20,748 nt of DNA from a virus: positions 1 to 20,748 of the IMG/VR virus record IMGVR_UViG_3300003322_000407; one strand, given 5' to 3'. The position numbers and the translations under genes are program-made. Of this stretch, positions 584 to 18,200 are shown in pieces (within the stretch, counting starts at the first letter, position 1; the number at the start of each line of letters is the position of its first letter). The notes under the pieces are model-generated. The model worked only from the letters and a program-made list of their open reading frames with translations, had not been told where the DNA came from and made no database searches.

Positions 584-3500
584 ATGCCGCAGATTAAACA
601 GACCTGTTCCGTCACCAACGGCAGCCAGAACGTCACGATTGCTGGCGTCAACCTGTCCAGTCGTGTTCGGAAGAACAACATTTTCATGGTGGAGGGCGCT
701 CTTGTGCCCTACGTCGTGGCGTCCGACTCGGTCTTCGACGGCACCAACACCATCGTCACACTGACCGGCGCCTACCAGGACGCCACCGATCCGGCCGCCA
801 AGGGCGTGTTTGCCGTCGATCTGACCTACCCGGACAACATTCCGACCATCGCGCAGGGCGACGTGGGCACCGCCGCGATCTTCACCCAAGCGATGTACAA
901 GCTGCAGGACATGATCAGCGCGGTCAATCCGAACGGCTTCCAGATGTACTCGGACATGTACAACGATGTCGTGACCATGAAGGACTCGGTCGACGCCAGC
1001 GAGCGCCATGTCTCCACCCTGGAATCGAGCGCATCGGCAAGCGCCACCGCGGCTGCTACCTCGGCTACCAACGTGAAAACCAGCGAGACCAATGCCGCGG
1101 CAAGTCAGGCTGCGGCAGCGACCTCGGCCGCCAACGCCAAGACGAGCGAAACGAACGCCAAGACGAGCGAGACCAATGCCTCCGCGTCGATGACGACCGC
1201 CCAGAAGTGGGCGACCCAGACCAGCGCCGAAGTGGTTGCTGGCCAGGGCTACGGCGCCAAGAAATACGCCACCGACGCGGCCGGCTCTGCAACTGCGGCG
1301 GCCACCTCGGCGACGAATGCGAAAACGTCCGAGACCAACGCCAAGACCAGCGAGACCAACGCTGCTACGTCGGCCAGTACCGCGACCACCCAGGCCACCA
1401 CGGCGACCACGCAGGCAGGCAACGCCTCCACGTCCGCCACCAATGCTGCCAACTCGGCAAACGCAGCGTCGAACAGCGCGACCGCGGCGAGCACCAGCGC
1501 GGGCAATGCCAAGACAAGTGAGAACAACGCGGCCGGTTCCGCCAGCGCAGTCGCCACTTCGGCCACCAACGCGAAGACCTCGGAAACCAACGCGAAGGCG
1601 AGCGAGACGAACGCCGCCGCCAGCGCGTCGGCTGCCGCCTCGTCCAAAACCGCGGCCGGCACGAGCGAAGCCAACGCTGCAGGCTCGGCGAGCGCCGCGT
1701 CCACCAGCGCGACGAACGCCGCCAACTCAGCGACGGCCGCAGCGACCAGCGCCAGCAACGCCAAGACCAGCGAGACCAATGCAAAAACGTCCGAGACCAA
1801 CGCTGCTGGCTCGGCCAGCTCGGCGGCCAGCTCGGCTTCGTCCCTGCAGGCGGCGCTTGCGGCCTTCAATTCGACCTTCATCGGCCGCCTGGCATCGGAT
1901 CCAACCAAGGACGGCAACGGCAACCCGCTGACCGACGGCGCGGAATACTTCAACACCACGACCGAGAAGCTGCGCGTCTATTCCGCCGGCGCCTGGTCCA
2001 ACTACGACGCATCGGCCCAGACCTACACCACGAACGCGAGCCTGTCGGCGACCAATGCGGCAAGCTCCGCGTCGGCTGCGTCGACCAGCGCGAGCAATGC
2101 CGCCACCAGCGCGAGCAACGCCAAAACGTCCGAGACCAATGCCGCCACCAGCGCCAGCAATGCCGCCACCAGTGCATCGAACGCGAAGACGAGTGAGACG
2201 AACGCCAAGACCAGCGAGACCAACGCAGGCACCAGCGCGACCAATTCGGCGACTTCGGCAACGAACTCGTCGAACTCGGCGACCCTGGCCCAGAATTGGG
2301 CTACACAGGCGAGCGGCGAGGTTGTGACCGGCAAGGGCTACAGCGCCTACTACTACGCCCAGCAGGCGGCGGCGAGCGCGGCGACCGCACTGTCCGGCCA
2401 GATTTCGTCCGACTGGGGCCAGACGAATACCAGCGCCAAGGACTTCATCAAGAACAAGCCGAACCTGCCAATCGTCTACCCGATTCCGTACAACAGCAAC
2501 ACGGCAGGCTGGGTCAAGCTGGGCACGTTCACTGTGCCAAGCCAGACTGGGCACATGCTCAAGCTGGAAATCACGTCGCACACCGGCTACAACTCGAGCG
2601 CCGCCCAGAGTCAGGAAACTGTGATCGTCTTCAAGACGACCAATGGCTCCAGTTTCGACGGCAACGGCTTCGCGGGCGACGGTTACTTTTACACCATCGG
2701 CCTGAATGGCGGTCAATTGAGCGCACCCATTGCCGTCAAGATCAAGGCGGACGCCGCCGGCGCCGGCGCGCGCAACTACGACGTCTGGATCAATCAGGGG
2801 GTCTTCGAGGACAATACATTCTACGCTGCTTCGGTGTCGCCAGCCGCTACCTGGGCCAACAACGCCAGCCTGACCTTTGGTCAGGCCGACCCGGGCGCTG
2901 CCAGCTCGACAATCGTGGCCCTGTCGAACATCGTGCCGTCATTCGGTGGCAAGCAGCTTGCACTGGCCGGCGCCAACACCGACATCACCAGTCTAACCGG
3001 ACTGACGAGCGTAACCTACGGCAGCGCGTCCCGCATCCTGGGTGAATTCAGCAATGGCGTCCTCGCATCGCGTACGATGTTCCAGTCGACCTCGACGAAT
3101 GGCTTTACCTCGGTCGGCCTCATGCCGAACGGGTCTGGCACGACGTCGCAGATCAACGCGCACAACACGTCCGACCCGGGCAACTCCAGCTACCTGGCGG
3201 TAGGCGCCAACGGGGGCACGACCTTCATCAACTCGAAATTCATCGGCACCGGCACGCAGTTACCGATTCAGTTCATGCTGAACGGCACCATAACGGCGCA
3301 AGTCGATTCGACCGGTTTGTCCGTGACGGGCACGACCGGCTCTACGAACGGCTTTACCACCCCTGCCTATGTGCTCAACGCGCGCAACCCGATCTGGCGC
3401 TTTGGCAATGCCGATCAGTACGGCATCAGCTACTTCCAGGACACGGCTGGCTACAATCAACACGACACCATTGGTTTCCACTTCGGAAATGCCACGGCGG

Positions 3501-5488
3501 CGGGTAACGCATTCTGGGTCAATGACCAAGGCTGGGTGGGTGGTGGCTGGTTCCGTGGATACGGCAGTGACAGCGGCATTGTGTTCAGCTCATTCAACAC
3601 CACGGCGCAAGGCTCGCCGGAGCAGTTCCGCGTTTACCACAACCTCTCCGACACGTACTTGACGAACCAGCGCGGCGCCCTTTACCTGAAGGGTCAAGCC
3701 GACACTGCGGCCAAGCTGGCGATTGCGCGCAATATCCAGGGCGTCGCGTTCGACGGCAGCGGCAACATCAGCCTGCCGGTGCCGCTGTCCGGCGCCGATG
3801 GCGCGTCGTACCAGATTGCCGCCGGCACGGACCTGAACGCCCTGGTTGGCACGACCGGCTTTTATCGCGGCCAGCAGCTGCTGAACGCCCCGAACGGCAA
3901 TACTGGATGGTTCTACATCACGCAAGAAGTGCACGACAGCGGCTGGACCAAGCAGATCGCGACTTCGTACGGCTCCGGTAACAAAGCCGGCGAGACGTAC
4001 CAGCGTATGAAATACAACGGCAGTACGTGGGGTATCTGGATTCAGATCACGGATGGCTCCTACGACATGCGCTACGTCATAAAGCGCCGCGCGAGCCGCT
4101 ACAACACGGCGGACGGCACCTCGATCAACAACATTGCTAACCCGGAAACCGGATTCGACTACGACACGGCAGGTGCCGGCGTCACCGGTCCATTCATTCA
4201 TTTCGGCGGCCTGAGCAGCTACGGCGACTATGGCTGCCAGATCGTGGCCGCCTACAAGAACGGCAACGACATTCGCTTCCGTACGAAGGACAACGACACC
4301 AGTGGCGTCTGGAACCCGTGGCGCTACTTCTGGCACTCGGGCAATCTGATGCAATCGGTGGTTGCTACGGCAAATACGGTAGTCCAGCGCGACGCCAATG
4401 GCTACATCCAGGGCAATTACATCAACATGTCTGACGACAGCAACCCCAATGGGGCTGGTGGCGTGGGCACGGGTGGACCGGTCACAGCGATTATCACCAA
4501 GCAGGGCGATAACTACTATCGCGGCGTAAGTGCGCAAAAGGTCAAGGATTTCCTCGGCCTGTCGACGATCAACGCCTCCGGCATCGGCGCCACGACCAAC
4601 CTGAACACGGTACTGTCGCCCGGGTTCTATTACATGGCCTCGTTGCCGATCAATGCACCTGGCGGCACATCGGACGGGCAACTGCTGGTGCTGGGCCATC
4701 CGAATAAGGACACCACGGCGCAGATCGCTTCCGACTACAGCACCGGGCGCCTGTTCGTGCGTACCGGCCGCTACTGGGGAAATGCGTGGTCGGTCTGGCG
4801 TACTCTGGCTTGGACTGACAGTGAAGTGTACCGCGATGCCACGCTGGTCAATGCCAATATCCGCAACTCGGACAACGGTCCTTCCACGTTCTTCAGCACG
4901 CTGGCGTCGGCAACCCGCATCGTAACCTTCCCGGACAAATCGGGCACGGTCGCGATGACCTCGGATATCCCTGCGGTGGCGACACCCGCTCTTGTGCTTT
5001 TGGCGCAGATGCAACCGTTAAACGTCACCTATATGGACTTTCTGAATGTGTGTAGCGATGCGTACGACAAATACATCATCGAAATCACGAGGGTGCTACC
5101 CGCTCAAGCCGCTAGTCTGATCCTGCGCATGGCGAATGGCGGCACGGTGGATACGAGTGGCGTGTACTCGTCAACATTAAGCAGCGGCAGCACGACGATC
5201 ACGACCAACCTGACCTCCATGTCGCTTGCAGGGGCGGTCGCTTCGCCCGCCGAAACCAGCAATGCGTGCGTCAACCTGACGATTGAGGTCACCAACGCAC
5301 GTAACGCTGGCGGGATGAGGACCGTACACCTTCACGGCGGCTTCTACAACTCAAGCGGAGCCTTCCAGTCGGTTGCGACCAACGGCGTGTACAACGGTAG
5401 CACGATCTCCGGCTTCCGCCTGTACTGGAGCGTCGGCAATACCTACCCAAGCGGCGTCGTGCGCGTGTACGGCGTTGTTAACAATTAA
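584..5488 (+). CDS. Side tail fiber (receptor-binding), Stf-like, 1634 aa
   Basis: This is the long fiber that contacts the host surface. The N-terminal ~140 residues likely attach to the tail. Residues ~148-420 and ~480-600 are low-complexity Ala/Ser/Thr/Asn repeats built on units such as SATNAKTSETNA, as in lambda Stf, and expected to form a trimeric shaft. Each block is paired with a WATQ(T/A)SxEVV...GYxAxxYA motif (about 209-228 and 572-591). A compact module sits between them (~428-472, DPTKDGNGNPLTDGAEYFNT). Later come a DWxxTxxxxxDFIKNKP motif (~610-626), two pyocin-knob-like domains (about 1083-1155 and 1339-1408, ending WGIWIQI and WSVWRTL), a FPDKSGTVAMTSDI segment (~1447) and a beta-rich tip. 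No frameshift was seen. It sits behind its own dyad promoter, and the start is the first ATG after that promoter. Confidence 0.9.
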   Translation: MPQIKQTCSVTNGSQNVTIAGVNLSSRVRKNNIFMVEGALVPYVVASDSVFDGTNTIVTLTGAYQDATDPAAKGVFAVDLTYPDNIPTIAQGDVGTAAIFTQAMYKLQDMISAVNPNGFQMYSDMYNDVVTMKDSVDASERHVSTLESSASASATAAATSATNVKTSETNAAASQAAAATSAANAKTSETNAKTSETNASASMTTAQKWATQTSAEVVAGQGYGAKKYATDAAGSATAAATSATNAKTSETNAKTSETNAATSASTATTQATTATTQAGNASTSATNAANSANAASNSATAASTSAGNAKTSENNAAGSASAVATSATNAKTSETNAKASETNAAASASAAASSKTAAGTSEANAAGSASAASTSATNAANSATAAATSASNAKTSETNAKTSETNAAGSASSAASSASSLQAALAAFNSTFIGRLASDPTKDGNGNPLTDGAEYFNTTTEKLRVYSAGAWSNYDASAQTYTTNASLSATNAASSASAASTSASNAATSASNAKTSETNAATSASNAATSASNAKTSETNAKTSETNAGTSATNSATSATNSSNSATLAQNWATQASGEVVTGKGYSAYYYAQQAAASAATALSGQISSDWGQTNTSAKDFIKNKPNLPIVYPIPYNSNTAGWVKLGTFTVPSQTGHMLKLEITSHTGYNSSAAQSQETVIVFKTTNGSSFDGNGFAGDGYFYTIGLNGGQLSAPIAVKIKADAAGAGARNYDVWINQGVFEDNTFYAASVSPAATWANNASLTFGQADPGAASSTIVALSNIVPSFGGKQLALAGANTDITSLTGLTSVTYGSASRILGEFSNGVLASRTMFQSTSTNGFTSVGLMPNGSGTTSQINAHNTSDPGNSSYLAVGANGGTTFINSKFIGTGTQLPIQFMLNGTITAQVDSTGLSVTGTTGSTNGFTTPAYVLNARNPIWRFGNADQYGISYFQDTAGYNQHDTIGFHFGNATAAGNAFWVNDQGWVGGGWFRGYGSDSGIVFSSFNTTAQGSPEQFRVYHNLSDTYLTNQRGALYLKGQADTAAKLAIARNIQGVAFDGSGNISLPVPLSGADGASYQIAAGTDLNALVGTTGFYRGQQLLNAPNGNTGWFYITQEVHDSGWTKQIATSYGSGNKAGETYQRMKYNGSTWGIWIQITDGSYDMRYVIKRRASRYNTADGTSINNIANPETGFDYDTAGAGVTGPFIHFGGLSSYGDYGCQIVAAYKNGNDIRFRTKDNDTSGVWNPWRYFWHSGNLMQSVVATANTVVQRDANGYIQGNYINMSDDSNPNGAGGVGTGGPVTAIITKQGDNYYRGVSAQKVKDFLGLSTINASGIGATTNLNTVLSPGFYYMASLPINAPGGTSDGQLLVLGHPNKDTTAQIASDYSTGRLFVRTGRYWGNAWSVWRTLAWTDSEVYRDATLVNANIRNSDNGPSTFFSTLASATRIVTFPDKSGTVAMTSDIPAVATPALVLLAQMQPLNVTYMDFLNVCSDAYDKYIIEITRVLPAQAASLILRMANGGTVDTSGVYSSTLSSGSTTITTNLTSMSLAGAVASPAETSNACVNLTIEVTNARNAGGMRTVHLHGGFYNSSGAFQSVATNGVYNGSTISGFRLYWSVGNTYPSGVVRVYGVVNN
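1016..1844 (+). repeat. Coding repeat array, fiber shaft block 1
   Basis: About 275 codons of imperfect, mostly 7- and 12-residue Ala/Ser/Thr/Asn units, with recurring KTSETNA, produce highly redundant DNA (many copies of AAGACGAGCGAGACCAA-like strings with silent changes). Codon choice varies between copies (AAGACGAGC, AAAACGTCC, AAGACCAGC), as expected if protein rather than DNA sequence is conserved. The redundancy also creates long open frames on the opposite strand that should not be taken as genes. Confidence 0.75.
2024..2384 (+). repeat. Coding repeat array, fiber shaft block 2
   Basis: A second, shorter block of the same SASNAKTSETNA-type units follows the globular insert at about residues 428-472. 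It ends in WATQASGEVVTGKGYSAYYYA, a near copy of the motif in block 1 (~209-228). The block-plus-motif arrangement looks like a partial internal duplication of the shaft, with the spacer domain between the copies. Confidence 0.65.
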
Positions 5489-6449: not shown

Positions 6450-6803
6450 ATGGAAACCAACCACCAAGGATTTGAGATGCCTAACCAGTCTGTGTTCGAA
6501 CAGCGCATGGATTCCCTCGCGGAAGAAATGCGGGACATTCGCGGCGCCTTGACGGAAGTCGCCAAGGCCCTTACCAAATTGTCGGTCCTGGAGGAGCGTA
6601 ACGTCGTTACCAGTCAGGCTATCGAGAAGATCGCCCAGCGCCAGGACAAGCTCGAGGACAAAGTCTCCGACATTGAGCTGGAGCAGGTCAAGTTCGAATC
6701 GAACGCCAAGGGCATGGCCACGGCCATGAAGCTCATGTGGGCTGCGTTCGGCAGCGGCGTCCTTTACATCGGCAGCGAACTGGTCAAGCAGTTCGCACAC
6801 TGA
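6450..6803 (+). CDS. Coiled-coil protein with C-terminal membrane segment (XhlA/holin-like)
   Basis: The product is 117 residues from ATG 6450. The earlier in-frame ATG at 6444 lies immediately against the AAAGG ribosome binding site and is less likely. Residues ~10-85 are charged, heptad-like helix (QRMDSLAEEMRDIRGALTEV, then KIAQRQDKLEDKVSDIELEQ). A single hydrophobic stretch, MKLMWAAFGSGVLYIGSELV (about 92-111), lies near the C-terminus. That architecture matches XhlA-type hemolysin or holin accessory proteins encoded beside endolysins. The endolysin starts 2 bases after this stop. A holin role is inferred from shape and position only. Confidence 0.5.
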   Translation: METNHQGFEMPNQSVFEQRMDSLAEEMRDIRGALTEVAKALTKLSVLEERNVVTSQAIEKIAQRQDKLEDKVSDIELEQVKFESNAKGMATAMKLMWAAFGSGVLYIGSELVKQFAH

Positions 6804-6805
6804 TC

Positions 6806-7450
6806 ATGACGCTCACACTCGACCAGCTGAAGGCAGCCATGCCGGCGTGCGCGGACGACCGGGCGCAGCAGTTCCTGGCGCCGCTCAACGCCGCGATCGC
6901 CGCTGCCGAGGCGAACACGTTCGACCGGCTGTGCATGTTCCTGGCCACGATTGCGCACGAATCCTTCGACCTGAACGTCCTGGAAGAAAACCTCAACTAC
7001 AGCGCCGTTGCACTGCAGCGGGTATGGCCTTCGCGTTTCCGTTTGTATCAGTCATCGGTGATTTATGAACGCAAGCCGGAGAAGATCGCCAACTACGTGT
7101 ACGCCCTGCGCGGCGGCAATGGCGACGAGGCATCGGGTGACGGCTGGCGCTTCCGCGGCGCCGGCGCGATCCAGTTGACGTTCCGCGTGAACCACTCGGC
7201 CTGCGCCAAGTTCTTCGGCAAACGGCTCGAAGACATGGCCGCCTGGCTGCGCAGCCCGGAAGGGGCGTGCATGTCGGCCGCCTGGTTCTGGAAGACCCGC
7301 GGCTGCAACGACTTCGCCGACCACGACGACTTCGACGGCGTGTGCGACGTGGTCAACATCGGCCGCAAGACGGCACCCGTCGGCGACGCGGTCGGTTTCG
7401 TCAACCGCCTGGCCAAGCTGCATAGCATTCGTGGAGCACTGAAGAAATGA
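6806..7450 (+). CDS. Endolysin, glycoside hydrolase family 19 (chitinase-like muramidase)
   Basis: The protein has 214 residues. The open frame extends upstream, but ATG 6806, two bases after the preceding stop, is the natural coupled start. The GH19 lysozyme/chitinase signature is clear: TIAHESFDLNVLEENLNYSA (about 48-67) carries the proposed catalytic Glu (E52) and a second acid near E60/E61. FRGAGAIQLT (about 116-125) is the substrate-groove motif, and a later AWFWKTRGCNDFAD is also typical. Phage members of this family cleave the peptidoglycan glycan backbone. No signal peptide is visible, so export should depend on a holin. It has the usual length of a single-domain phage GH19 enzyme. 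The stop overlaps the HNH gene start (ATGA). Confidence 0.88.
   Translation: MTLTLDQLKAAMPACADDRAQQFLAPLNAAIAAAEANTFDRLCMFLATIAHESFDLNVLEENLNYSAVALQRVWPSRFRLYQSSVIYERKPEKIANYVYALRGGNGDEASGDGWRFRGAGAIQLTFRVNHSACAKFFGKRLEDMAAWLRSPEGACMSAAWFWKTRGCNDFADHDDFDGVCDVVNIGRKTAPVGDAVGFVNRLAKLHSIRGALKK
7049..7069 (+). promoter_or_regulatory. Intragenic copy of the dyad/-10 element in the endolysin gene
   Basis: Within the endolysin, CAGTCAT-CG-GTGATTT (7049-7064) is followed by TATGAA (7064-7069) at the same offset as the fiber promoter (16 of 21 positions identical). TTTGTA lies upstream as a weak -35. The codons used here (TTG, TAT, CAG, TCA, TAT) are more AT-rich than those around them, as if constrained by more than protein sequence. 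It could feed the HNH gene or serve as an extra binding site. It is degenerate and may be coincidental. Confidence 0.35.
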
Positions 7451-12308: not shown

Positions 12309-12755
12309 ATGACTTTTGCACAAAGCACCACCGACGCAATCCGCCAGGAGCAGATCGCGGAAGCGCGCCGCCTGGCCGACCAGGAGCACGAACCGGTCGC
12401 CCGCCGCACCACCCTGCACCTTGCCCATCCCCGCGCCGGCTCCCGTACCGGCACCGGCCATGTCGAAAAGAAGAAGAACGTGCTCAAGGGGCACGAAGCC
12501 TTCCTGAAGGCGCTGGAGATAAACGGCGCACGCATCGAGGTCGAGAAGAAGGACGGCATCCTGTACCGCGGTGTCCTGAAGCACACGGACAAGTACACGA
12601 TCACGCTGCACGTCACCGAACAGGGCCACGTCGAAGACGGCGAGGAATTCAGTCTGGTCGAAGGCCGCGACCGCGTGATTTTCAAGCATGACATGAGCGA
12701 GTTCTCGGCCCTGACCCCGCGCCAGGCCTCGACCACCACCGAAGGAAACGAGTAA
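12309..12755 (+). CDS. Phage Hfq-like (Sm-fold) RNA-binding protein candidate
   Basis: The protein has 148 residues from ATG 12309, behind CAGGAGAACGACC. Residues ~60-135 align by eye with Hfq. GHEAFLKALEINGARIEV corresponds to Hfq LQDPFLNALRRERVPVSI. The following DGILYRGVLKHTDKYTITL corresponds to NGIKLQGQIESFDQFVILL (Sm1). RVIFKHDMSEF (about 122-132) corresponds to QMVYKHAIST (Sm2), including the Lys-His pair (K126, H127) that lines the RNA-binding proximal face of Hfq. Tyr replaces Phe42. It differs in an 18-residue acidic insert between strands and a polar ~58-residue N-terminal extension. An RNA chaperone or sRNA-binding role is inferred, and another small-barrel function is possible. 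It overlaps the helicase start by one base (TAATG). Confidence 0.6.
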   Translation: MTFAQSTTDAIRQEQIAEARRLADQEHEPVARRTTLHLAHPRAGSRTGTGHVEKKKNVLKGHEAFLKALEINGARIEVEKKDGILYRGVLKHTDKYTITLHVTEQGHVEDGEEFSLVEGRDRVIFKHDMSEFSALTPRQASTTTEGNE

Positions 12756-14215
12756 TGACCGACGCAGCAACCGTTGCGGAAGACGCGGTTGTCGACATGA
12801 TCGGTGCTGTGATGAGCGGCACCGGTTACGCCACGCCCGCATCATCGTCGTCGCCCGAAGTCCTGTTCGGCGACGAGAAGTTTGAATTCGACGCGGAGTT
12901 CCAGACCAAGGTCGCGGTCCACGCGATGCGCAACCTGGACTTCCTGCGAAAGGTTGGCCACCTGCTGAAGCCGGACTACTTTGAGAATGCCGGCGAGGCC
13001 GCGATGGTCAACATCGCCTTGCGTTACTACCGTCAATACGGGACCACGCCGACGCCGCTGGCGGCGCGCGAATTCTTCGCCGACGACATCAAGGCCAAGG
13101 TGATCAGGAGCGACATCAAGCCGGCGGCGATGGATGCGTTCAAGGCGTGCTTCCAGCCCACCGCGGACCTGTCCGACAGCCAGTACATCGCCGAGCGCGT
13201 CGCGGAGTTCGCCCGCCACCAGGCGATCAGCGCCACGATCCTGCAGTCGGTTGAGCTGCTGGACAAGAAGCAGTTCGACAAGATCGCGAAGAACGTCAAG
13301 GCGGCGTGCGAGGTTGGCATCAACACGGCCGGCGAGGAGTACGACTACTTCGAACGCATCGCCGAGCGCACCAACGAGCGCGCGGACCGCCTGGCCGGCA
13401 AGCTGCCGCCGACCGGGATCACGACGGGCCACAAGCTGATCGATGAACTGCTGTATCACAAGGGATGGGGGCGCAAGGAGCTGTCCGTGATCCTGGGGGG
13501 CGCGAAGGCGGGTAAGACCACCTTTCTGATCAACTGCGCGAAAGCTGCGTCCCTGGCCGGCTTCAACATTCTCTACGTCACCTGCGAGGTGGCCAGCCGC
13601 ATCATCGCCGAGCGTCTCGACGCCACGATGACGGACACCGAGGTCAAGAACCTCATGGCCAAGATGAAGGAGGTCGAGGGCAAGCTGAAGGCGACCATGC
13701 CGCGCGCTGGCAAGATCAAGTTCGCCGAGTACCCGTCCGGCACCCTGACGCCGACGATGCTGCGCGCCCTGATCGAAGGATACAAGTCGCCGCGCCTGAA
13801 CCCGGACGGCACCGTGCGCGAGCCAGTCCAGTTCGACCTGATTGTCGTCGATTACGCGGACATCATGGCGCCGGACATCCGGACCCAGGACGCGATCGAG
13901 AACTCCAAGTCGATCTACCTGGCCTTGCGTGCCATCGCACAGGAAGAAAACGTTGCGATGCTGTCAGCCACGCAGACCAACCGCGAGGGCATGAAGTCGA
14001 CGGTGGCAACCGCCACGCACGTCGCGGACGACATCAACAAGGTACGGACGGTCGACATCATGATCTCGATCAACATCACCGACGAGGAGCGGGCCAACGG
14101 CGAAGCGCGCCTGTATTTCGCGGCGTCGCGTAACCAAGCCGGCGGCTTCACCATCTTCATCAAGCAGGAGTTGGAGAAGATGAAGTTCATCTCCAGCATC
14201 ATCAGGGTGGAGTAA
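12755..14215 (+). CDS. DnaB-like replicative DNA helicase
   Basis: The 486-residue protein has a RecA-type helicase core. GITTGHKLIDELL (about 221-233) precedes the Walker A GGAKAGKTT (248-256). The Walker B is LIVVDYADIM (about 362-371), and LSATQTNREG (about 403-412) is the DnaB-like H3 motif, followed by a C-terminal DNA-loop and arginine-finger region. The N-terminal ~200 residues are helical, as in DnaB, but poorly conserved. It would unwind the phage replication fork as a hexamer with the adjacent primase. The Walker A starts GGAKAGKT where host DnaB has GRPxxGKT. Both ends are coupled: TAATG with the Hfq-like gene and TAATG with the primase. Confidence 0.88.
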   Translation: MTDAATVAEDAVVDMIGAVMSGTGYATPASSSSPEVLFGDEKFEFDAEFQTKVAVHAMRNLDFLRKVGHLLKPDYFENAGEAAMVNIALRYYRQYGTTPTPLAAREFFADDIKAKVIRSDIKPAAMDAFKACFQPTADLSDSQYIAERVAEFARHQAISATILQSVELLDKKQFDKIAKNVKAACEVGINTAGEEYDYFERIAERTNERADRLAGKLPPTGITTGHKLIDELLYHKGWGRKELSVILGGAKAGKTTFLINCAKAASLAGFNILYVTCEVASRIIAERLDATMTDTEVKNLMAKMKEVEGKLKATMPRAGKIKFAEYPSGTLTPTMLRALIEGYKSPRLNPDGTVREPVQFDLIVVDYADIMAPDIRTQDAIENSKSIYLALRAIAQEENVAMLSATQTNREGMKSTVATATHVADDINKVRTVDIMISINITDEERANGEARLYFAASRNQAGGFTIFIKQELEKMKFISSIIRVE

Positions 14216-15321
14216 TGAGCCATCACGCCAGCTATCGCCGCGACGAAGAATTGCAGGAAGCGATCGACGCTATCGACATCGAGTGGTGGCTCGATCGCGA
14301 GGGCATTCGCTACCGGCATACCCGCGGTGCGCGCGGCCCGCAACTGAACGTGAAGGAGTGTCCCTGCTGCGGCAACTCGAACTACAAAGTGTACCTGTCG
14401 GCCGAGACGGGCCTCGGGAACTGCTTTCACGGCGACTGCGAGACGAAGTTCAATCGCTGGAAATTCATCAGCGCATATCTTGGACTGCCGGCGCGCGACG
14501 TCATCGAGCATATCAAGCAGTACGCCCGCGAACAGGGATGGCGCCCGCCGCGTAAGCGCGCGATCGCCGTGAACAACCGCGGCGCGCTCACGCTGCCCGA
14601 GTCCATCGCGTTACCGCACAACGGGCGTAACCTGAGATACCTGGACAACCGCGGCATCAATGGTGACATCGCAGCGTACTTCGAACTGCGCTACTCGCAT
14701 CGCGGACACTTCGACTACATCAGCGAGGAAGGCAAGCCGATGACTCAGGACTACGCCGGCCGCATCATCATCCCGGTCTACGACCTGGAGGGCGAGCTGG
14801 TGTCGTTTCAAGGGCGCGACATCACCGGCGAGGCGGACAAGAAGTACCTGTTTCCACCAGGCTTCGCGTCGACCGGCAGCCACCTGTACAACGGCTACAA
14901 CGCCATCGGCGTCGAGCATGTGGTGCTTGGCGAGGGTATCTTCGACGTCGCCGGCATCAAGGTCGCCTTCGACGCCGAGGTCACGCTGCGCGACATCGTG
15001 TCGATCGGTTCCTTCGGCAAGCACCTGTCGCACGGCGACGACGACAGCCAGCTGGCCAAGCTAGTGCAGTTGAAGGAGAAGGGCCTGCAGGCGGTCACGT
15101 TCATGTGGGATGGCGAGCGCCAGGCGATCCGCGACGCGGTGAAGGCGGCGCAGATGGTGCAAAGCGTGGGCCTGACGGCCCGCGTGGCGCTGCTGCCGAA
15201 GGGGAAAGACCCGAACGAGGCAAGTCCGGAGGAGGTGCGCAACGCCTTCTGGAAGGCCACGTCGATCAACAACTCGAGCGCCACCAAGCTCTTGCTGATC
15301 GCAGAGCGGGAATATGCTTAG
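14215..15321 (+). CDS. DNA primase (zinc ribbon plus TOPRIM)
   Basis: The protein has 368 residues. An N-terminal zinc-binding region (CPCC at 49-52; then NCFHGDC at 69-75) is followed by a helical linker and a TOPRIM core. VVLGEGIFDVAG (about 235-246) holds the conserved Glu. TFMWDGERQAI (about 295-305) supplies the acidic motif, with SIGSFGKHLS between them. The C-terminal LLPKGKDPNEA resembles T7 gp4 and DnaG-like primases. It makes RNA primers for lagging-strand synthesis. It lacks a helicase domain, which is supplied by the preceding gene, so the T7-type fusion is split here. Translation is coupled to the helicase stop. Confidence 0.87.
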   Translation: MSHHASYRRDEELQEAIDAIDIEWWLDREGIRYRHTRGARGPQLNVKECPCCGNSNYKVYLSAETGLGNCFHGDCETKFNRWKFISAYLGLPARDVIEHIKQYAREQGWRPPRKRAIAVNNRGALTLPESIALPHNGRNLRYLDNRGINGDIAAYFELRYSHRGHFDYISEEGKPMTQDYAGRIIIPVYDLEGELVSFQGRDITGEADKKYLFPPGFASTGSHLYNGYNAIGVEHVVLGEGIFDVAGIKVAFDAEVTLRDIVSIGSFGKHLSHGDDDSQLAKLVQLKEKGLQAVTFMWDGERQAIRDAVKAAQMVQSVGLTARVALLPKGKDPNEASPEEVRNAFWKATSINNSSATKLLLIAEREYA

Positions 15322-15415: not shown

Positions 15416-15865
15416 ATGACATACAAGATTGACACGAACTATCTGGAGCACAGCGGCGGGACCAAGTTCTACGAGACCGTGATGATCCAGGAAGATAACG
15501 GGCCTGGTCTGTTGATCAAACGGTGGGGCGCCATCGCACTGAAGAACGGCGGCGGGCAGACCAAGTACGAGCGCGGCACCCACAGCGTCGTCGCCGGCGA
15601 GAACAACAAGATCCTGGCCGAGAAGCGCAAGAAGGGCTACGACAACGCCACCAAGAGCGGCGCGCTGCACACATGGGCGGGCAAGGAGGTCGACGCCGCG
15701 ATGCTGGCGGGTCTGGTCAAGGGGCATTACGGCCGCGACACCGAAGACTACGTCAAGGACTACTTCGGGCTGAACGGCAGCGCACCGGTCGTCAACGAGG
15801 AGCCGCCGGCGCCGAAGGAACCAGAGACACCCATCGAGCGCGGCGAGACGTGGGGGAGCTGGTAA
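15416..15865 (+). CDS. WGR-domain protein with GSW C-terminal tip
   Basis: Residues ~15-80 of this 149-residue protein match the WGR domain: TKFYE, then LLIKRWGAI (W37, G38, with Ala at the usual Arg), then GGGQTKYE and EKRKKGYD. WGR domains bind DNA breaks and 5'-phosphorylated ends in PARP-type proteins and occur in bacterial MolR-like proteins. A stand-alone phage copy beside DNA ligase suggests recognition of nicks or ends (inference). The C-terminal third is Pro/Glu-rich linker ending ERGETWGSW. That tip is shared with the next protein (KGEDFGSW). The gene starts at ATG 15416 behind GCGAGGG, and its stop overlaps the next start (TAATG). Confidence 0.65.
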   Translation: MTYKIDTNYLEHSGGTKFYETVMIQEDNGPGLLIKRWGAIALKNGGGQTKYERGTHSVVAGENNKILAEKRKKGYDNATKSGALHTWAGKEVDAAMLAGLVKGHYGRDTEDYVKDYFGLNGSAPVVNEEPPAPKEPETPIERGETWGSW

Positions 15866-16092
15866 TGGCTGTTATATCCGAGAACGCCTTCCGATCATAC
15901 TACGCGCGCGGTGAGGCAGACGCCCTTATCGGTCGCCTGACACCCGACATGCAGGACGCGGTGCGCCAGAACATGCTGTGGAACGTGCGCAACGCGATCG
16001 CCTACGAAGCCCGACAGAAGCAAGAGATCGAAGAATTGGAGCAGTACACCACACAAGTCGTCGCCAAGGGCGAGGACTTTGGCAGCTGGTAA
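15865..16092 (+). CDS. Small helical protein with GSW C-terminal tip (75 aa)
   Basis: The start is ATG 15865, overlapping the WGR gene stop. The longer open frame upstream in this phase is a shadow of the WGR gene. The 75 residues are mainly helical (ADALIGRLTPDMQDAVRQNM, then AYEARQKQEIEELEQYTTQV), and the protein ends KGEDFGSW. The last residues parallel those of the preceding protein (GETWGSW): a GE, an aromatic, then GSW. I know no function for it. The short acidic helix with a tethered terminal aromatic tip suggests a small adaptor (inference). Confidence 0.7.
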   Translation: MAVISENAFRSYYARGEADALIGRLTPDMQDAVRQNMLWNVRNAIAYEARQKQEIEELEQYTTQVVAKGEDFGSW

Positions 16093-16106: not shown

Positions 16107-16787
16107 ATGAAAAACGAACCGATCAAGCACGACCAGTCTTACCCGCCGGCCGTGTCCGCCGGCCCGGAGAACGCCTACTACCTGCGCGGCTGCGACGCCG
16201 TGCAGCGCGGCCCATCGTACGCCAGTTGTCTGTTTAAGATCGCCGAGTACGAGCGCGGCGTGGAGCGTGAAATCTACCGCGAGTGCCACCAGGCCATCGC
16301 CGGCCGCCGCTGCATAGCGCTGGAAATGCGCGAACAGGAGAAGCTGCAGGGTGTGGCGCTGTACTACTTCCCGCGCAAGTCGCCGCAGCCTTTGTACCTG
16401 CCATTTAAAGTCACTGGTGACTTTGGTGTACGCATCACAAACCTCACCGATCCGGCGCTGATCCCGAAAGACCCGAAGCCATTGGGGCGCAGTGCTGGCG
16501 TGACCACGAAGCCCGCACCGGCGGCTAAATCGCTCGACGACCATCTGACCGCGGCGACAAGCAGTGGCTTCGCTGATGCGCTGACTGCAGCGGTGGCGGA
16601 TGCAGCGACCGAGAAGCCGATCACCGGCGGCAGCGATGCCATGAAGGCGCTCGTTGCCGAAGCGGTTAAGAGCAGCCCGCCGGTCACGGTGCCGCCGATG
16701 GTCAAGCCCAGCCGGCCGCCGATGCAGCCTGGCGAAACCCCTTTGCAATACGCCCGCCGCCTCGCGGCACAAACCACCAACGCATAA
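16107..16787 (+). CDS. Hypothetical phage protein with Pro/Ala-rich C-terminus (226 aa)
   Basis: The start is ATG 16107, behind AAGGAGCGCAC. The frame is open further upstream only as a shadow. The N-terminal ~115 residues look folded (YYLRGCDAVQRGPSYASCLF, then REIYRECHQAIAGRRCIALE, with VALYYFPRK). The rest is an Ala/Pro/Thr-rich linker ending MQPGETPLQYARRLAAQTT. I do not recognise the family. It lies between the GSW-tip pair and DNA ligase in one operon, so a role in nucleic-acid metabolism is plausible but unproven. A dyad identical in plan to the phage operator is embedded in its coding sequence (16408-16423). Confidence 0.7.
   Translation: MKNEPIKHDQSYPPAVSAGPENAYYLRGCDAVQRGPSYASCLFKIAEYERGVEREIYRECHQAIAGRRCIALEMREQEKLQGVALYYFPRKSPQPLYLPFKVTGDFGVRITNLTDPALIPKDPKPLGRSAGVTTKPAPAAKSLDDHLTAATSSGFADALTAAVADAATEKPITGGSDAMKALVAEAVKSSPPVTVPPMVKPSRPPMQPGETPLQYARRLAAQTTNA
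16408..16423 (+). promoter_or_regulatory. Perfect dyad operator inside a coding gene
   Basis: AAAGTCAC-TG-GTGACTTT (16407-16424) is a perfect 8-bp inverted repeat. It differs from the site at 6366 only at the symmetric inner T-A/C-G pair. It encodes FKVTGDF with unusually AT-rich codons (TTT AAA ... TTT GGT GTA) for this gene. No -10 box follows, so it is not an obvious promoter. It may be an auxiliary operator for looping or a silencing site. Confidence 0.5.
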
Positions 16788-16796
16788 CGAGGAACC

Positions 16797-18200
16797 ATGA
16801 ACTCCAACGAAATTTTCGATTTGATCGAACAAGTTGCCGCTACCCCCGGCAAGAACGACAAGATCGCCCTGCTCAAGGCCCACGCCGGCGACTACACGCT
16901 CAAGCGCGTGCTCGCTGCAGCCTACAACCCGCTCATTAGCTACGGTATCCGCAAGGTGCCCGAGCGCCCCTCGATCGAAATCCAAGGTATGAACCCCATC
17001 GACGATAAGACGTGGGCAATCATCGACGACATGGCGACGCGCAAACTGACTGGCAATGCCATGCTCGAGCAAGTGGCGAGCGAACTGGTACGTCTGTCCC
17101 ACAAGAGTGCCGAGTTGTTCAAGCGCATCCTGCTGAAGGACATGCGCGCGGGTTTCGACGAAGGCACTGTGGGTAAGGTGTGGCCTGGCCTGGTGCCCGA
17201 CTTCCCCTACATGCGCTGCTGCCTGCCGAAGGACGCCAAGATGGACGGCTGGAATTGGGGCGACGGCCAGATCAGCCAGGAGAAGGCTGACGGCATGTTC
17301 ATGAACGTGAACCACGAGGCGGCCGGCAACGTGTTCATTTACAGCCGGCAGGGTTCGATGTTCCCGATGGAGAAGTTCGAATCGCTGGCGACAGCAGTGC
17401 GCACGACGCTCAATCCTGACACACAGAACCACGGAGAGTGCCTGGTGCTGCGCGACGGTGAAGTGCTGCCGCGCGAGATCGGCAACGGCATCCTGAACAG
17501 CGTGCTCAAGGGCAGCGACTTCGGGCCGAACGAGCGCCCGATCTTCCTGGTGTGGGACCAGATTCCGCTGTCCGCGGTCAAAACCAAGGGCAAGTACGAC
17601 GTGCCGTACGTGCAGCGCCTGACCGGCCTGATCCAGCAGCTCCAGCGCAACCAGAGCGGCACCGTGCAACTGGTGCCGACGCGCATCGTCAAGTCGCTGG
17701 CTGACGCCTACAAGCACTACGGCGAACTGCTCGCCAAGGGCAAGGAAGGCACGATCATCAAGCGGCGCGACGCAATCTGGAAGGATGGCACCAGCAAGGA
17801 ACAGGTGAAGCTGAAACTGGAGTTCGAGCTGGACCTGGAAGTGGTAGCGATCGTGCCTGGCAACGAGAACACGAAGAATGCCGGCCGCGCTGGCAGCCTG
17901 ACGTGCAAGACCGATGACGGTCAGCTCGTTGTCGACGTGGCAATCAAGGGCGAAGCGATGCGCGATGTCGTGGACGCGAACCCGGACAACTGGATCGGCA
18001 AGATCATGCCCGTCACGGCGAACATGATCATGCGGCCGAGCGAATCGAATAAACTGTTTAGCCTGTTTCTGCCCCGCTTCACCGAGAGCACGCCGCGCGC
18101 TGAGAAGACCGAGGCCGACTGCCTGGAGCGCGCGTTCGCGATCGAGGAAGCCGCCAAGCAGGGCAAGAAGATCGCCGATGACTGGAAGGAGGCAGCATGA
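16797..18200 (+). CDS. ATP-dependent DNA ligase
   Basis: The 467-residue enzyme joins DNA nicks through a ligase-AMP intermediate. The adenylation motif is QEKADGMF, with the nucleophile K163 (usual pattern KxDG). Later nucleotidyltransferase motifs are GECLVL (about 213-218), KEGTIIK (316-322) and VKLKLEFE (337-344). An OB-fold domain follows, with EVVAIVPG and a C-terminal region as in T4- and T7-type ligases. The N-terminal ~150 residues are a helical DNA-binding-like part. The start is ATG 16797, behind ACGAGGAACC. The stop overlaps the next start (ATGA). It would seal Okazaki fragments made by the helicase-primase operon upstream. Confidence 0.9.
   Translation: MNSNEIFDLIEQVAATPGKNDKIALLKAHAGDYTLKRVLAAAYNPLISYGIRKVPERPSIEIQGMNPIDDKTWAIIDDMATRKLTGNAMLEQVASELVRLSHKSAELFKRILLKDMRAGFDEGTVGKVWPGLVPDFPYMRCCLPKDAKMDGWNWGDGQISQEKADGMFMNVNHEAAGNVFIYSRQGSMFPMEKFESLATAVRTTLNPDTQNHGECLVLRDGEVLPREIGNGILNSVLKGSDFGPNERPIFLVWDQIPLSAVKTKGKYDVPYVQRLTGLIQQLQRNQSGTVQLVPTRIVKSLADAYKHYGELLAKGKEGTIIKRRDAIWKDGTSKEQVKLKLEFELDLEVVAIVPGNENTKNAGRAGSLTCKTDDGQLVVDVAIKGEAMRDVVDANPDNWIGKIMPVTANMIMRPSESNKLFSLFLPRFTESTPRAEKTEADCLERAFAIEEAAKQGKKIADDWKEAA

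Follow-up and report, generated by a model that had tools for sequence, protein, structure and literature searches.

The two proteins encoded one after the other between the primase and ligase genes of an uncultivated phage end in RGETWGSW and KGEDFGSW, which raises the question of why neighbouring proteins of different sequence should share a C-terminal tip. The first-pass annotation had described a GE-x-aromatic-GSW tip and guessed that it docks onto a common partner, perhaps in the replisome or on the ligase. We analyzed the locus, its relatives and the distribution of such ends among phage proteins.

The locus and its relatives

The window is a 20,748-base IMG/VR phage fragment (IMGVR_UViG_3300003322_000407, positions 1 to 20,748). 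The two genes lie downstream of a DnaB-type helicase gene and between those of a DnaG-type primase and an ATP-dependent ligase, as assigned by Pfam and PHROGs. The features of the locus are:

14215..15321, plus strand: DNA primase (Pfam, PHROGs), upstream of the WGR gene, without a tip
15416..15865, plus strand: WGR-domain protein of 149 aa (Pfam PF05406), carrier of tip 1
15776..15838, plus strand: variable linker at residues 121-141 of the WGR protein, with predicted disorder
15839..15862, plus strand: tip 1, RGETWGSW; core WGSW at 15851-15862, stop codon TAA at 15863-15865
15852..15858, plus strand: GGGGGAG within the tip 1 codons, probably serving the next gene as its Shine-Dalgarno site, read from the sequence
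15865..16092, plus strand: 75-aa protein, carrier of tip 2; its ATG overlaps the WGR-gene stop as TAATG
16066..16089, plus strand: tip 2, KGEDFGSW; core FGSW at 16078-16089, stop codon at 16090-16092
16107..16787, plus strand: phrog_4558-like gene after the small-protein gene, without a tip but with its own conserved C-terminal segment (...ETPLQYARRLAA)
16797..18200, plus strand: ATP-dependent DNA ligase (Pfam, PHROGs), downstream, without a tip

Both ends were confirmed. The WGR protein scored 23.8 bits against PF05406 (cut-off 22, E = 4.7e-5), within the family limit, and gp034 of phage RHEph10 scored 58.2 bits. The AF2 model gave block mean pLDDT values of 86-98 to about residue 120 (mostly above 85) and of 49-61 from residue 121 to the end, and the tail is thus predicted to be disordered. 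The top PDB matches of the model in Foldseek were the WGR domains of PARP1 and PARP3, and although these matches were weak (E = 0.03-0.04, TM about 0.4), they and the high pLDDT of the body suggest a WGR fold. The 75-aa protein had no Pfam or PHROG match, and in BLASTP its similarity to the WGR protein was confined to the last 10 residues.

The ...ETPLQYARRLAA ending of the 16107..16787 protein was retained in relatives. This protein also contains an internal LTAATSSGFADALTAAVADA resembling a C-terminal segment of Rhizobium phages, AAxTGDLxAA[I/L]N, which is common to their pre-ligase protein and to small proteins encoded between SbcD and SbcC (L036 14094-14651, 36036-36368 and 36368-36676; L024 15896-16471 and 36911-37261). 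Elsewhere in the window, a 148-aa protein encoded before the helicase (12309-12752) gave a sub-threshold Hfq/Sm-like match (PF17209, E = 0.002) and, if the match is real, would be a phage Sm-like protein, and a tail-fibre-like protein of 1634 aa (584-5488) carries repeated ATSATNAKTSETNA units in its first third.

Nucleotide comparison and tblastn searches with both window proteins gave no match in cultured phages, and neither did tblastn of the WGR protein against plasmids; cultured relatives were located through the helicase and ligase. Among IMG/VR contigs, which may be incomplete, the 111.6-kb G001 (IMGVR_UViG_3300028585_000002) carries orthologues of both proteins, ending RGETWGSW (WGR protein) and KGSDWGAW (small protein).

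Conservation of the ends

A WGR profile scan gave 21 loci, and the 20 intact-ended sequences, the window protein included, were aligned (alignment A5); the broad alignment A3 was too divergent for scanning and A6 was used in its place. All 20 proteins end in [WFY][GA]x[WF], at identities of 20-70%. The domain has a mean pairwise identity of 0.40 and the linker one of 0.19; the last four residues reach 0.51, against 0.22 for positions -8 to -5. Position -7 is G, D or N and position -6 is variable. As read from these alignments, the constrained part of the tip is aromatic - Gly/Ala - x - Trp/Phe - COOH, and the "GE" of the pattern first described is incidental.

Relatives of the small protein were found in G001, G003, RHEph10 and Y2_11 (alignment A2), and also at IMG/VR loci. 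The body of the G001 protein is about 40% identical to that of the window and retains the tip pattern, and the tip ends 13/13 of the small proteins examined whose gene directly follows a WGR gene. Loss or variability of the tip in homologues, which the first-pass annotation had named as evidence against docking, was therefore seen in neither family.

Recurrence of the tip on other proteins

The annotation had also called for a search of the phage proteome and its relatives for similar ends, and this search revealed the tip on several non-homologous proteins. In G001 two more carriers were found, both in recombination genes: an ExoX-C-like protein, encoded downstream of the RecA-like gene, ends YAESWGSF, and a protein encoded between SbcC-like and RuvC-like genes ends VYADFGSW. 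The ExoX-C-like protein ends WG[SA]F in 4/4 sequences, and the SbcC-RuvC-slot protein ends FG[SA]W in 9/9 aligned sequences, some of which are overlapping copies of one genome. Y240, F243, G244 and W246 are among the few invariant residues of the latter, whose C-terminal domain was well predicted, with low confidence for the last four residues. Its fold had no convincing PDB match and matched one viral protein in BFVD; being unrecognised, it was dropped as a clue to function.

Each of the cultured relatives, which include Nickievirus, Rhizobium phages and SSU5-type phage-plasmids, shows a tip of its own on the proteins of the corresponding gene slots, although the association of tip variants within one phage is confounded by descent. 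In Rhizobium phage RHEph10 the WGR protein ends RFGMF and both the next protein and the pre-RuvC protein end NFGRF; the same slots read RFGMF, NFGRF and NFGRF in RHph_Y2_11 and LYGRF, NFGAF and LFGAF in RHph_X66. Cyrano has SWGSW and IWGTW, SSU5 has GWATW and TWATW, and nickie has GWGAFG, DFGGWA, DIGGWA and EDFGGWS, among others. Two families of the SSU5-type group end W[A/G]TW in 26/26 and 24/24 intact members. Nickievirus tips have one extra terminal residue, and Nickievirus hairong has at least eight strict tips, several of them on small proteins outside the replication cluster. On the other hand, Stenotrophomonas phage ANB28, with a similar replication module, lacked tips in the matching slots and had few at other places.

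When the WGR profile was compared by hhalign with those of the small protein, the SbcC-RuvC-slot protein and the SSU5-slot protein, the tip alone aligned, with negligible probability, and nothing aligned between other pairs of tip-carrier profiles. Together with the BLASTP result this bears out the view that the two window proteins are otherwise unrelated. In Nickievirus the slot encodes a divergent WGR protein (E = 5.7e-6), whereas the SSU5 slot is occupied by a different, non-WGR body with a tip of the same kind. That the body was replaced and the tip retained argues for a function in the tip itself.

Conserved tip-like ends were also noted on small proteins encoded away from the replication cluster (G001 51118-51561 and 61073-61698; G003 62021-62467 and 69117-69497), with the sequences DD[VI]AGVGAW, DDFGSFG, VDFGAFG and DEFGSF. 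Small proteins encoded between SbcD-like and SbcC-like genes end GGTF or GGSF (L020 9140-9508; L022 12704-13156), possibly a weak form of the tip. A second common C-terminus, P[Q/K/S]TxV[E/D]xVW or similar, was noted on several small proteins, some of which may be paralogues (PQTVVEVIW, PQTPVDVVW, PKTTVEVVW and PQTEVDAW; G003, IMGVR_UViG_3300045976_000096, 78875-79977, minus strand; G001 36959-37312; L020 12749-13123; G004 6525-6866).

Enrichment over chance

The motif C-terminal [WFY][GA]x[WF](A/S/G)? was counted and compared with the internal frequency of the same string. The 23 called genes of the window have 2 tips against 0.02 expected (P = 2.9e-4), for a motif picked after it had been seen; the evidence from the relatives and from the motif-free test below is far stronger. 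Observed and expected numbers were 6 and 0.08 in G001, 5 and 0.16 in G003, 3 and 0.08 in G004 and 8 and 0.12 in hairong and, for 50 kb each, 4 and 0.02 in nickie, 3 and 0.04 in RHEph10 and 2 and 0.03 in SSU5; genes were called by a simple codon-score script, so these counts are approximate, and the genomes are not independent. No tips were found in 249 called genes of T4, T5 and phiKZ (50 kb each) and T7.

Since the motif had been defined in hindsight, we also ran a motif-free test, in which protein pairs without shared 5-mers were scored over their last six residues (BLOSUM62 score of at least 21). This test gave 21 pairs in hairong and 9 in nickie against 0-1 in null windows shifted inward, and no pairs in T4, T5, T7, phiKZ or ANB28.

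A candidate docking motif and its proposed hub

The recurrence on non-homologous proteins, the conservation of the tip against a diverging linker, the disordered tail, the enrichment and the absence from T4, T5, T7 and phiKZ give good, if indirect, support to docking on a common partner, as proposed at first. From these sequence comparisons we consider it likely that several unrelated proteins bind one common hub through the tip, as a short linear docking motif at the C-terminus. The motif would read [D/E/N/x]-[W/F/Y]-[G/A]-x-[W/F]-(A/S/G)0-1-COOH, on flexible tails of unrelated non-virion phage proteins. The clients would be the WGR protein, the small protein that follows it, the SbcC-RuvC-slot protein, the ExoX-C-like protein and many small Nickievirus accessory proteins. 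The two aromatic side chains of each tip, often with the terminal carboxylate, would plug into the same hub pocket, and the hub would recruit varied accessory activities to the place of phage DNA synthesis, such as sensing of DNA breaks or nicks by the WGR domain and recombination and resolution functions.

The phages themselves probably encode the hub, within the replication and recombination core common to all of them; we favour as candidates the DnaE-type polymerase, the gp32-like SSB and the RecA-like recombinase. The first-pass reading was thus upheld in part. The ligase, helicase, primase and polymerase themselves lack the tip, and "replisome" may be too narrow, as several of the Nickievirus carriers are encoded away from the replication cluster. 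With the extra residue of the Nickievirus tips, this makes a replisome-only hub uncertain. A phage-encoded clamp was set aside, since Pfam recognised neither a gp45-type nor a beta-type clamp in nine relatives. For gp45, PF02916 gave no match in these nine relatives at E = 0.1, a weak test, as the 14 control genomes gave one weak hit and included no T4-like phage. A tentative extension, to which we give somewhat less than an even chance, is a "toolbelt" hub other than the canonical sliding clamp, perhaps the DnaE-type polymerase or some other protein of the core, served by interchangeable aromatic tips. Were this so, any protein, small host-takeover proteins included, could be plugged in by gaining four residues, and the hub would organise many accessory proteins in changing combination.

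That the docking motif is read by a protein of the host, for instance its beta-clamp or some other subunit of the replisome, appears rather unlikely. Use of the host clamp is plausible in phages with a DnaE-type polymerase and no recognised clamp of their own, and some clamp motifs are C-terminal (PMC11139829). However, the tips have neither the Gln nor the aliphatic residues of the beta-clamp motif, and clamp binding is weakened when the final residue is Trp (PMC11139829). In addition, the tips vary by phage lineage although the clamp pocket is conserved.

A C-terminal degron for a host or phage protease or adaptor, which would make accessory early proteins short-lived, is in our judgement improbable. 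The carriers are mostly accessory, non-enzyme proteins, and degrons are often C-terminal and hydrophobic. On the other hand, to our knowledge the tip is unlike the C-terminal signals of ClpXP, Lon or Tsp, and the E. coli phages T4, T5 and T7 are without tips, although one might expect a general host degron in them.

Overlap with translation signals

The codons of tip 1 and the start of the next gene (TGG GGG AGC TGG TAA TG) place GGGGGAG six bases upstream of the next ATG, and positions 15852-15858 are, as read from the sequence, probably of dual use, as tip codons and as the Shine-Dalgarno site of the next gene. Such use of tip codons was seen in 11 of the 20 WGR genes and in many Nickievirus tips. 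The overlap can favour Gly-Ser, Gly-Arg or Gly-Gly in the tips, and the additional A or S that ends Nickievirus tips comes from an ATGA overlap. Where genes overlap, Shine-Dalgarno use can account for some of the conservation.

It is very unlikely, though, that the shared ends are wholly a by-product of translational coupling, in which GGGAG- or GGAGG-type sites force the Gly-Ser, Gly-Arg or Gly-Gly pair and ATGA the final residue. In five WGR relatives without next-gene overlap (L042, L044, L048, L050 and L051) GGGGGAG is absent and the same residues are specified by other codons (GGC AGT, GGT AGC or GCC AGC). The gene after tip 2 has its own AAGGAG past the stop, and the tip 2 codons therefore do no Shine-Dalgarno work. 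Strict tips were found in 21 of 345 genes with a close next start, and also in 18 of the 522 genes whose next start is more than 8 nt away, far above the approximately 0.4 expected at the internal rate; the latter kind includes the window small protein, the G001 SbcC-RuvC protein and genes of SSU5 and X66, with gaps of 10-80 nt. Coupling also leaves the two aromatics unexplained, and T4, T5, T7 and phiKZ are likewise rich in close or overlapping genes, yet have no tips. As the sole cause, Shine-Dalgarno overlap is thus largely refuted by the non-overlapping cases.

The probability of mere chance, or of a local duplication that copied one gene's 3' end into its neighbour, is negligible. Duplication, which the annotation had named as counting against docking, would be favoured by the likeness of the last 24 bases of both window genes (GGCGAG...GGnAGCTGGTAA), but this similarity does not continue upstream. 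Both readings are refuted by the enrichment and by the recurrence of tips on unlinked, non-homologous genes in many genomes and with different codons.

Relation to known C-terminal motifs

The docking motif thus remains our preferred reading, and no description of it was found in the literature searched, the coverage of which was partial. It would supply a sequence rule for picking, among the many small genes of large phages, those working at one site, and it predicts a hub and pocket open to direct tests by peptides; the phages concerned infect Salmonella and E. coli, Pseudomonas syringae and Rhizobium.

The WGR family (PF05406; PARP1-3 and bacterial WGR proteins) accounts for the body of the first window protein and not for its tip, which lies outside the domain and has a similar counterpart on the non-WGR body in the slot of SSU5-type phages. 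The flexible C-terminal tail of SSB and the acidic tail of T7 gp2.5 contact replication proteins (PMC5686142). There, however, one tail serves many partners, whereas in the tip phages many proteins carry the tail, and a long acidic run is missing from it. Neither Pfam nor PHROGs identifies the carriers as SSB; the phage SSB is encoded by a gp32-like gene of its own (PF08804) and ends differently, in G001 for example as ...DALLGELPE.

The bacterial beta-clamp motif, Q-phi-x-[L/M]-[F/L] or a six-residue variant with Trp disfavoured at the last position (PMC11139829), resembles the tip in being short and hydrophobic, in lying in disordered regions and sometimes at the C-terminus, and in having many clients per hub; lacking Gln and aliphatic residues, the tips were rejected as examples of it.

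The nearest mechanistic analogue would be T4 gp43, gp33 and gp55, whose C-termini resemble one another, follow divergent and probably unstructured linkers, all bind the clamp gp45 and are interchangeable in vitro (PMC2988020). The T4 epitope differs in sequence, being hydrophobic and acidic, no gp45 or clamp homologue was recognised in the nine relatives scanned, and the tip phages have many more clients. In both systems, nevertheless, a short C-terminus is carried by several unrelated phage proteins on divergent linkers.
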